Part shown: positions 50,847-53,920 of the stretch, in pieces
Layout of the letters: the number at the start of each line of letters is the position of its first letter
Numbering within the stretch: the first letter of the stretch is position 1
Origin: Prochlorococcus marinus str. MIT 9515
GTDB taxonomy: Bacteria > Cyanobacteriota > Cyanobacteriia > PCC-6307 > Cyanobiaceae
Direction: 5' to 3'
Assembly (NCBI RefSeq): GCF_000015665.1
Contig: NC_008817.1
Location: 1,302,001 to 1,366,000, forward strand
Length of the DNA stretch: 64,000 nucleotides
Notes under the pieces: model-generated
Database searches by the model: none
What the model was told of the DNA's origin: nothing
Seen by the model: the letters and a program-made list of their open reading frames with translations, nothing else
Position numbers and translations under genes: made by a program

Positions 50847-51014
50847 ATGAATTTCTCAGAAATTCCAGAAAATTCCTTTATCTTGTTATCTTGGGTAACA
50901 GCCTTTGGATTGTTTTTAAGTTTAACTGAAGCAACTTTAAAAATAAGGTTTGAAAGGTTAAGTTCTATTAGAAGAAGACAAGAACTTGTTAGTAATCTCT
51001 ATCCTAAGGTTTAG
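50847..51014 (+). CDS. Small single-helix membrane protein (55 aa)
   Basis: ATG at 50847 opens a 55-residue frame: an acidic N-terminus, one membrane helix (about residues 12-28) and a basic Arg-rich tail (RFERLSSIRRRQEL). The amphipathic layout looks like a real protein, not a chance frame. Its stop overlaps the convergent DoxX gene by 4 bp. No family recognised. Confidence 0.6.
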   Translation: MNFSEIPENSFILLSWVTAFGLFLSLTEATLKIRFERLSSIRRRQELVSNLYPKV

Positions 51015-51577
51015 TTAGATGTATCTGAAAGTAAATTAGCTTGTAAGAATTGAAAAATACCACCTTTGTTGGGTTCCTCTTCATCTTTAACTGTAGATTT
51101 TCCAATTTTAGCTTTTGATTTTACAGACACCTGTTGAACTTCTTCGTCCTCAGATTCAGATCTCAATATTCTAATTATAACCTCATCAATCGAGAAATCC
51201 CCAGGACCGGTTAAAGCAATACAAGTTGAAGAGGCAAAATATAAAAGCAAAAGTTCTAATAAAAAAATATTAAAACCTGCTGTGACGAGCGCATGATAAA
51301 TGGCTACTGATATAGTGCCAACGATTGCGAGCGCACCAAATCTTGTGGCTAAACCAAGAATTAGTAGCCAGCTGCCTCCTATCTCTGAAAATGCGGCCAC
51401 GTATGACAAGAATATTGGGAAAGGTAGGTGTAAAGGTCTGACAAAGGCATCAGCAAAATTTTCAATATTTGCAAGCTTTTCAAAACCATGATGAATTAAA
51501 ACTGTACCAGTTATAACTCTTAAAATTAATAAAGCTGTATCTTTGCTGAATGATTTTGTAAGAATTGTTGAAAGCAC
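51011..51577 (-). CDS. DoxX-family membrane protein
   Basis: The 188-residue protein has four membrane helices in the first 135 residues with the DoxX signature (LRVITGTVLIHHGFEKL; AAFSEIGGSWLLILGLATRFGAL). A polar tail of about 55 residues follows. DoxX proteins are linked to redox and thiol-stress systems, but no function is firmly assigned in cyanobacteria. Confidence 0.85.
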   Translation of the reverse strand: MLSTILTKSFSKDTALLILRVITGTVLIHHGFEKLANIENFADAFVRPLHLPFPIFLSYVAAFSEIGGSWLLILGLATRFGALAIVGTISVAIYHALVTAGFNIFLLELLLLYFASSTCIALTGPGDFSIDEVIIRILRSESEDEEVQQVSVKSKAKIGKSTVKDEEEPNKGGIFQFLQANLLSDTSN

Positions 51578-51735: not shown

Positions 51736-52872
51736 TTAATTTTGAAAAATATATTTATTGATTTTTGGAATGTTTTCTTTAAATTTAAAAAATCCTTTTT
51801 TGGCAAACTTCCAAGCAAATAAGTCTTGATCTCTTACTAAGTTAAAGATAACTTTATTATTTGAAATTTTAAAATTTTTTATAAAATCGTTATTATCTCC
51901 TATGCCGGGATAAATCATATCTAACTGATTAATATCTTTAAAGTTTTCTTGAAGTCTTATAGTATTAAGTTGAGTAACATTATCAAATTGCGCTACAAAT
52001 TCGGAAACTATTTGTTGTTTGAAACTCATAACTGCTGAAGATAATTTTATCTTTCTTTGTTCGTTTCCTAGCAGGATAATGAATACTCGTTTGTAATTTT
52101 GAAAGATATTTTTAAGGGTTGGAGCATGTAAATCGTTTTCAAATAATATGAGTGATTCTGACTTTTGTTCCATATTGCTCTTATAAATCTCATCTGTTAA
52201 TGGAATTTGATTTAGTTCTTCTAGAAAGATTTGTTTATTATTAATTTTTTCAACATTAAACCTATTATTTGAAAATTTCCTAAGATTTGAGGGGGAAAAA
52301 AGATATTGCTTCCCTTTTGTTTGTAATCCAGCAACCCATCTCCAACTCAAAATATTGGAGGCAGAATCCCCATCATATAAATGTTTAAAGAAAAAATTCG
52401 CACCTAATTCCCAAGGCAGTCCAAAATTAAATATCCAAGTACTAGCAAACCACATCCGAGTATGGTTGTGTAAATAGTTATGAGTCTTTAACTCATTAAC
52501 CCATGAATTAAAAAAGCTTAAATCTGTATCTCCATTAATTGCTTTTTCATAGGCTTCAAAATCATATTTAAAATTTTTTTCTGAAATAAAATCAACCCAA
52601 ACATTCGGTCTATTCTCCATCCAACCTTTCCAATAAATTCTCCAATAAATTTCTTCTATAAATTTATTAATTTTTTGAGATTGATATTTCTTCTTAACTT
52701 CCTCAATTAATTCGTACTCTAATAAAATCCTATGCGAAACGTAAGGGGATAATTTCGAAACCGAGCTAACATTCTCTGGTCCATAATCAAAATTACGAAA
52801 TTTTTCATAGTTTTGAATTTTATTCTCTAAAAAATCGACCCACTTTTCTTGAGCATCCTGAAATTGTGTCAT
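51736..52872 (-). CDS. Photolyase/cryptochrome-like protein with FAD domain first
   Basis: The first 210 residues match the helical FAD-binding domain of photolyases: SKLSPYVSHRILLEYELIEEV (about 37-57), IEEIYWRIYWKGW (72-84), HNYLHNHTRMWFAS (131-144), and LYDGDSASNILSWRWVAGLQTKGK (165-188). The normal N-terminal alpha/beta domain is missing. Instead, residues about 239-378 begin with an alpha/beta pattern (LILFENDLH...KRVFIILLG) like that domain's start, suggesting a swapped order. The enzyme may repair DNA or sense light; this is an inference. Length 378 versus about 470 for usual photolyases. Confidence 0.78.
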   Translation of the reverse strand: MTQFQDAQEKWVDFLENKIQNYEKFRNFDYGPENVSSVSKLSPYVSHRILLEYELIEEVKKKYQSQKINKFIEEIYWRIYWKGWMENRPNVWVDFISEKNFKYDFEAYEKAINGDTDLSFFNSWVNELKTHNYLHNHTRMWFASTWIFNFGLPWELGANFFFKHLYDGDSASNILSWRWVAGLQTKGKQYLFSPSNLRKFSNNRFNVEKINNKQIFLEELNQIPLTDEIYKSNMEQKSESLILFENDLHAPTLKNIFQNYKRVFIILLGNEQRKIKLSSAVMSFKQQIVSEFVAQFDNVTQLNTIRLQENFKDINQLDMIYPGIGDNNDFIKNFKISNNKVIFNLVRDQDLFAWKFAKKGFFKFKENIPKINKYIFQN

Positions 52873-53170: not shown

Positions 53171-53920
53171 ATGGGTTCGTTATTAGAAAAAAATGTTAAA
53201 CATCTTGATGAACAATATAGAATAGGCAACGCTCTAATATCAGATAAAGCTTTTGATCAACTTGAAAAAAACTTACTCCGAACAGATCCACAATGTGATT
53301 ACTTTAATCAAAAAAATAATTTATTACTTCCCTCATTGGCTAATGAAAACCATATAGAGTTTTTAGCGAGCTTGTTAAAAAACACAAGATTGAGCATTCA
53401 ACCAAAAATTGATGGATGTGCTATTGCAATTAATTATATAAATGGCAAGTTTAATAAAGCCATTACAAGAACAGGATTTGATGTCACAAGCAAAATTAAA
53501 AAGATTAAAGATGTCCCCAGTCGCCTTCCTATCCAACGAGATTTTCAAGTTAGAGGTGAGCTTTACTCCCCAAACCAAACTCCCTATTTTTCCCAAAAAA
53601 TTACAAGCGAATTCCTCAACAATAAAAAAAGGATTGCAAAAAGTTTCAGCTTTTGCTGTTTCCAAATACTTAATGGAAGACTTAACCAGTATGAAACCCT
53701 TAACTATCTTAAAAAATGTGGCTTTAACACCCCTCACAGTTACTTCACTAATTTTACAAGCCAAGTCGAGTTATTTAGAAAAAGATGGTTAGATGGAAAA
53801 ATTTTTTCAAAATACCCAACTGATGGAATTGTCATCAAAATAAATAGTAGAAAATTGCAGTTGCTTAGAGAAACAAATCTTTCAAAATATAATGAATGGC
53901 AATATGCAATTAAAAAATAA
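53171..53920 (+). CDS. LigA-like protein limited to the NAD-binding and adenylation domains
   Basis: The 249-residue protein resembles the first part of NAD-dependent DNA ligase (about 670 residues). A short Ia-like region (DEQYRIGNALISDKAFDQLE) is followed by the nucleotidyl motifs: KIDG at residues 79-82 with the lysine that takes AMP, RGE at 128-130, DGIVIK at 218-223, and a terminal EWQYAIKK like motif V. OB-fold, zinc finger, HhH and BRCT domains are all absent. It may still bind NAD and adenylate itself; whether it joins DNA is unknown. The gene reads intact to its own stop. Confidence 0.78.
   Translation: MGSLLEKNVKHLDEQYRIGNALISDKAFDQLEKNLLRTDPQCDYFNQKNNLLLPSLANENHIEFLASLLKNTRLSIQPKIDGCAIAINYINGKFNKAITRTGFDVTSKIKKIKDVPSRLPIQRDFQVRGELYSPNQTPYFSQKITSEFLNNKKRIAKSFSFCCFQILNGRLNQYETLNYLKKCGFNTPHSYFTNFTSQVELFRKRWLDGKIFSKYPTDGIVIKINSRKLQLLRETNLSKYNEWQYAIKK

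Follow-up and report, generated by a model that had tools for sequence, protein, structure and literature searches.

Photolyases of inverted domain order are reportedly the subject of Emmerich et al. 2020 (NAR 48:12845), where the NewPHLs are said to be CPD photolyases that act on single-stranded DNA. The short photolyase-like proteins (SPL) of Xu et al. 2021 are reportedly without the alpha/beta domain altogether. In the passages found, SPL are also named in PMC9498864 and PMC9178010, and PMC13274461 gives the NewPHL class an inverted domain topology and treats NewPHL and SPL as one. The Prochlorococcus representative, Phr7, and its occurrence in the genus are already published: Haney et al. 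2022 (mBio, PMC9426592), in the passages at hand, name the gene phr7, describe an N-terminal FAD domain followed by a C-terminal Z-domain (termed an atypical, short photolyase domain), assign the protein to the NewPHLs of Emmerich et al. 2020, report the gene from every LLI strain and the majority of HL strains, and state that Phr7 is without the cysteines of an Fe-S cluster. The same passages equate Phr7 with two proteins, one from Dinoroseobacter shibae and one from Methylobacterium mesophilicum, for which they report light-dependent CPD repair specific to single-stranded DNA. Among the passages found, homology of the Z-domain to the photolyase domain is stated in PMC9426592 alone. A passage of PMC3441193 concerns PMM1360, a Prochlorococcus protein that has an FAD domain and lacks a partner domain, with diel expression like that of phrA at a much lower level; PMM1360 is presumably the phr7 orthologue of strain MED4.

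The window analysed here, a 64,000-nucleotide stretch of the genome of Prochlorococcus marinus str. MIT 9515 (bases 1,302,001–1,366,000), contains a gene (Table 1) at 1,353.7–1,354.9 kb of the single-contig genome of 1,704,176 bases. The product of this gene is very probably Phr7, the NewPHL of Prochlorococcus, with the FAD domain first, an antenna-type domain at the C-terminus and a role in light-driven CPD repair. Full-length copies free of internal stops are present in 32 of the 37 genomes of a genus set, the own genome counted and several of the genomes being incomplete. Both halves are under purifying selection, as judged from nine pairs of relatives to which the window phr7 does not belong: dN/dS is 0.08–0.22 in the FAD part and 0.04–0.24 in the C-terminal part (in one pair, L007/L008, the domain borders are moved by an extension at the N-terminus). 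The intact copies and the selection on both halves argue that the open reading frame is not a chance one. The own genome has four photolyase-family genes, phr7 among them, and TIGR02765, below its cut-off, picks out the identical four places. The earlier note had allowed that an N-terminal domain might be encoded just upstream behind a frameshift; a genome-wide search with PF00875 finds only the two places listed in Table 1 and nothing upstream of or near phr7, which rules this out.

Table 1. Features of the phr7 locus, with Pfam matches elsewhere in the own genome; positions refer to the window unless given in kb of the genome
Feature	Position	Strand	Basis or remark
phr7 / NewPHL-type photolyase gene	51736..52872	(-)	378 codons + stop (51736-51738); open frame, full-length genus copies, colinear alphaproteobacterial relatives
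N-terminal helical FAD / catalytic domain, residues 1-222	52207..52872	(-)	PF03441, model helices, Z 13-16 to photolyase FAD domains
Linker, residues 223-239	52156..52206	(-)	without secondary structure; mean pLDDT 73-85 in 10-residue blocks 211-240 (model)
C-terminal alpha/beta 'Z-domain', residues 240-378	51739..52155	(-)	models, structural match, profile link, column conservation in 68 rows
DoxX family protein	51011-51577	same as phr7	downstream of phr7
249-aa ORF	53171-53920		adjoins phr7; best match is part of the NAD-dependent DNA ligase adenylation domain
PF00875 matches in own genome	294.8-295.3 kb and 362.7-363.0 kb		
PF04244 match in own genome	433.7 kb		

Relatives of Phr7 are numerous outside the genus. 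A pattern scan of genome_contigs yielded at least 590 confirmed relatives among the 595 matches listed, and most of the 80 loci kept come from Alphaproteobacteria; a few bear the labels Beta- or Gammaproteobacteria, and one is from a metagenome bin that is labelled as a cyanobacterium and that the tree groups with sphingomonads. The alphaproteobacterial full-length relatives are colinear with Phr7 and comprise 388–410 amino acids; TM1040_RS02270 of Ruegeria sp. TM1040 is one example and is also the best match (E 6e-66, 83% of the query) in a set of 65 matching plasmid records. This architecture, identical in Alphaproteobacteria and in the 32 intact genus copies, bears out the domain order that the earlier note had read from one sequence. 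For alignments A2 and A3, 67 of the 80 kept loci were used; Phr7 is 29–35% identical to the relatives in A2 (68 rows), and 11–24% identical in the C-terminal part. An alignment of seven proteins, four of them alphaproteobacterial and three from the genus or family of the window, runs from end to end and takes in the C-terminal motif. Of 386 genomes sampled across the phylum, 100 give a match to Phr7 at E ≤1e-15. In 19 of them the match is nearly full length (17 from the genus, and two from another genus of the same family at 40–42% identity), and in the other 81 it comprises the FAD part alone, ending by query residue 215. Ten phage records match, the best at 30% identity in the FAD part only and none of the ten covering 80% of the query, and none of six matched stretches in viral_contigs encodes a relative. 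Within the PDB, no structure of the class was seen among 32 distinct profile-matched sequences, whose best stretches all lie within position 240 of 401.

The N-terminal half is a photolyase FAD domain. PF03441 (FAD_binding_7) matches residues 71–232 (E 6.5e-15), and no other Pfam family is found anywhere in the protein up to E 1. Photolyase FAD domains of the PDB align by phmmer to residues 7–201 over several rows, the best being 4u63 (E 2.2e-13), and the NCBIfam matches all fall far under their cut-offs (46.9 of 317 bits for the CRY-DASH model TIGR02765). In the AlphaFold2 model (built with 68 sequences; pLDDT 92.3, pTM 0.91), helices occupy the region between residues 3 and 200, and five strands alternate with helices from residue 240 onward. 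Aligned with VIA-align, residues 1–222 of the whole model match photolyases with Z values of 13.2–16.2 in the best 50 rows, of which 49 are photolyases or cryptochromes and one is the mitoribosomal assembly chain 7pub_Ff; three insect cryptochrome rows extend to residues 362–365, and the lack of a family in this list carries no meaning. The earlier note had placed the FAD domain first, with its motifs in normal order and no alpha/beta domain before it, and had proposed a structure prediction; these claims hold, and both the FAD part of this model and the C-terminal part modelled alone align with photolyases.

The residues of the repair site are retained. In the phmmer alignment, E274, W277, R278, N341, M345 and W359 of E. 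coli photolyase correspond to E74, W77, R78, N136, M140 and W154 of Phr7, and D372, D374, N378, W382 and W384 correspond to D167, D169, N173, W177 and W179. These eleven residues, which we take to be FAD-binding, electron-transfer or CPD-contacting, are invariant throughout the 68 rows of A2. W306 of the E. coli enzyme, presumably a member of the electron-transfer chain, is paired with E98 in the same alignment, and the distal tryptophan is not kept there; either photoreduction takes another route, or the alignment is locally wrong. No cysteine is present among the 378 residues, and a four-cysteine Fe-S cluster is therefore absent.

The second domain is an alpha/beta domain of different size and position from that of ordinary photolyases. 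In the model, its strands are formed by residues 240–244, 262–266, 299–302, 316–320 and 341–345, followed by helices that carry the family motif R-x-x-D-x-x-x-W...GFF-x-[FVL]-[KR]. The stretches LILFENDLH (residues 241–249) and RVFIILLG (residues 262–269) coincide with the first two of these strands, and the window protein deviates from the family consensus at the otherwise well-kept positions 295, 326, 355 and 356. Modelled separately, the C-terminal 147 residues reach a pLDDT of 88.9. With this model, Foldseek ranks phosphopantetheine adenylyltransferases at the top and the photolyase PhrB twelfth, none of them at E ≤1e-3, a result that favours an unrelated Rossmann-like domain merely resembling an antenna domain. 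The same explanation gains from the Pfam and HMM searches: PF00875 is detected in the C-terminal part of one of 68 family members (E 0.058), no Pfam family matches that part of the window protein, and a PDB search with the Z-domain HMM returns no photolyase up to E 10, the best matches being short-chain-dehydrogenase-like BdcA entries (E 0.008).

The structural alignment points the other way. Run over the Foldseek candidates, VIA-align returns as its top matches for the C-terminal model the N-terminal antenna domains of (6-4) photolyases (8ijy residues 2–123, Z 9.1 over 107 residues, rmsd 2.7; 4dja residues 2–165, Z 8.2 over 141 residues, rmsd 3.9). All of the first 14 rows are photolyases or cryptochromes, eight aligned inside chain residues 1–167 and six starting at residues 1–14 and ending at residues 265–283. 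VIA-align warns that Z values of 7–8 are reachable by common arrangements, and the fold alone is therefore insufficient to identify an antenna domain.

A second line of evidence comes from profile comparison, by way of Phr5, the separate alpha/beta partner protein of Phr4. The C-terminal profile of the family (111 rows, leaving out the Prochlorococcus row L020, which the selecting motif missed, and L056, a duplicate of L031) aligns with the Phr5 profile (9 rows) at an hhalign score of 38.4, a probability of 79.5% and a single-pair E of 1.5e-5, and the Phr5 profile in turn aligns with residues 1–200 from a set of 20 photolyases at a score of 81.9, 97.6% and E 2.8e-12. Phr5 also gives weak PF00875 matches in all three proteins tested, at 14–23 of 26.6 bits, each under the curated cut-off. 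The direct comparison of the C-terminal profile with photolyase N-termini is weak (score 29.0, probability 18%, single-pair E 1.3e-3), as an unrelated domain would have it; its alignment is colinear, with LILFENDL placed on the first strand and its D-L. The scores of 38.4 and 29.0 exceed those of the reversed profiles (16.4 and 10.4), the best of 100 column shuffles (18.8 for Phr5 and 21.1 for the N-termini) and those of five unrelated alpha/beta sets (10–13; two sets scored identically and evidently consist of the same sequences). When three Deinococcus C-terminal domains are added to Phr5, the link rises to a score of 43.1 and 88%, in a comparison made without the shuffle control. At the level of sequence profiles, Phr5 thus connects the C-terminal domain to the N-terminal antenna domain of photolyases. 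Together with the photolyase and cryptochrome rows of VIA-align, and with the equal placement of the Phr7 domain, Phr5 and the fused Phr6 domain after the FAD domain, these controls make an unrelated Rossmann-like domain unlikely. On balance, the domain is best read, from profiles and models, as a reduced antenna-type domain in reversed position. The resemblance to a photolyase N-terminus and the swapped order suggested in the earlier note are thereby upheld, the former by the VIA-align matches and both by the link that runs through Phr5.

Photolyases with the FAD domain first are also encoded on Deinococcus plasmids (L063 2309–3679, L169 1321–2739, L170 1348–2639). Two records hold fused forms of 456 and 472 amino acids, and Deinococcus sp. 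QL22 has a split form, with genes for 257 and 173 amino acids that overlap by 4 bases. Of the fused proteins, one has a PF00875 match in its C-terminal part and the other, of 472 residues, has none; the second gene of the split pair also matches, and both matches are under the curated cut-off. Tree 1 was built from 78 FAD-domain rows, among them 35 of the 67 aligned loci and 19 of the 20 photolyases chosen for comparison. In it, the nine Phr7 rows and the 35 NewPHL-like rows constitute one side of a 100/99 branch, and with midpoint rooting the neighbouring group consists of Phr4/Phr6 and one Deinococcus row (89/70); long branches meet in this tree, and the letter make-up of the Prochlorococcus rows deviates. 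The NewPHL rows and Phr7 are not split by one branch (two changes; 32% of the bootstrap trees have one). In tree 2 (44 rows, with Phr2 and Phr1 added), a 100/99 split separates class I and Phr1 from the FAD-first rows and Phr2, where Phr2 has a branch length of 4.97 beside one Deinococcus row (98/93; long-branch warning) and Phr1 a branch of 4.4. The labels class I, Phr1, Phr2 and Phr3 were assigned from Pfam match, length and PMC9426592.

It is conceivable, though we lean somewhat against it, that a single ancient change of domain order gave rise to all FAD-first photolyases (NewPHL/Phr7, Phr4-Phr5, Phr6 and the Deinococcus forms), and that the NewPHL C-terminal domain is a stripped, pigmentless antenna domain covering the FAD pocket. 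If so, the NewPHLs would be derived and not ancestral photolyases, a question for which the sequence link of their C-terminal domain to the antenna domain is relevant.

Two further sets of loci were seen in the course of this survey. On two Persicobacter plasmids (L171 1324–2535 and L172 1192–2532, stop-to-stop frames), a FAD-first photolyase-like protein has a short C-terminal domain, and the frame directly after it resembles, by eye, an ordinary photolyase or cryptochrome N-terminus; both stretches are without annotation. Five loci of one cyanobacterial genus (L050, L051, L053, L054 and L057; genus g45, family f28) encode a Phr4-like protein of about 280 amino acids, with no Phr5-like ORF (≥90 amino acids, phmmer E 1e-3) within the stretch, unlike the picocyanobacterial loci.

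We observe the domain order, the predicted fold, the homology, the conserved repair residues and the conservation of the gene; by analogy, the job of Phr7 is most likely light-driven CPD repair in single-stranded DNA. In the FAD domain, light-excited reduced FAD would give an electron to the cyclobutane pyrimidine dimer, and the specificity for CPD and for single strands would be that of the published family members. The alpha/beta domain, which in ordinary photolyases is N-terminal and able to hold an antenna pigment, would in Phr7 be shortened, C-terminal and probably free of pigment. Its conserved helices at the C-terminus (R..D...W...GFF.FK) are probably packed against the FAD domain, in place of C-terminal helices that are missing from this short FAD domain. 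Such an FAD-covering role is reportedly in part described by Emmerich et al. 2020.

The earlier note had spoken of a distinct light-dependent repair or sensor protein. A cryptochrome-like blue-light sensor or regulator would share its fold with the cryptochromes among the structural alignment rows, and the passage of PMC3441193 reports PMM1360 solely as diel-expressed; the eleven mapped residues, invariant in 68 relatives, and the characterised family members, reported as CPD photolyases in passages of PMC9426592 and PMC13274461, make a sensor very unlikely, and it is the repair half of that suggestion that stands. That the gene is an ordinary photolyase decayed or frameshifted after loss of its N-terminal domain would explain an open reading frame without such a domain, and is refuted by the intact copies in the genus, the purifying selection on both parts among relatives, the architecture shared with Alphaproteobacteria and the lack of PF00875 near phr7.

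The adjoining 249-residue ORF looks like a stand-alone or truncated ligase, and neither it nor the DoxX protein has a counterpart beside any of the 80 kept loci, surveyed up to 4 kb on each side. A short-chain dehydrogenase resembling one near phr7 occurs at three of the 80 loci. The query for an Asticcacaulis NAD(P)-binding protein matches at 14 loci, AarF at three, a hemolysin-family protein at one, two DUF3429 queries at one and none, and PdxJ at none; no functional operon emerged around the relatives within this range.

NewPHLs reportedly stand in for DASH proteins, according to Emmerich et al. 2020. In line with this, no match exceeds the curated DASH cut-off in any of 41 genus genomes, the absence being judged by that cut-off alone; a second family member of the own genome scores 165 of 317 bits. 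The cryptochrome gene of Vibrio cholerae is, we presume, of the DASH type. It is to this gene that the passages of PMC9426592 liken phr1.

In Phr7, an abundant ocean phototroph has a member of a class that is published but has received little study. The present analysis makes two modest additions: a sequence link of the C-terminal domain to the antenna domain, backed by controls, and the reversed-order photolyases, fused and split, of Deinococcus plasmids; we claim no priority for either.

Among known systems, the class I/III CPD photolyases (1dnp, 1owl, 4u63) share with Phr7 the FAD fold and the repair residues, and differ in their opposite domain order, longer FAD domain and full antenna domain; the succession of PF00875 and FAD domain that characterizes class I is not found in Phr7. 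SPL likewise are without an N-terminal alpha/beta domain, whereas Phr7 has a C-terminal one. In Phr4/Phr5 and the fused Phr6 of marine Synechococcus and Cyanobium, the FAD domain also comes first and the alpha/beta domain second, in two genes or one; these proteins have four Fe-S cysteines and are predicted (6-4) photolyases according to the passages of PMC9426592, unlike the cysteine-free Phr7. With the NewPHL class, Phr7 has in common the leading FAD domain, the small C-terminal domain, a length of about 380–410 amino acids and a colinear alignment with the alphaproteobacterial proteins; it differs in some well-kept C-terminal positions and in the level of identity to these relatives given above, and the D. 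shibae and M. mesophilicum proteins were matched by description. The closest system is Phr7 itself: compared by description with the passages of PMC9426592, no difference was found, and the window gene has the same architecture and occurrence.
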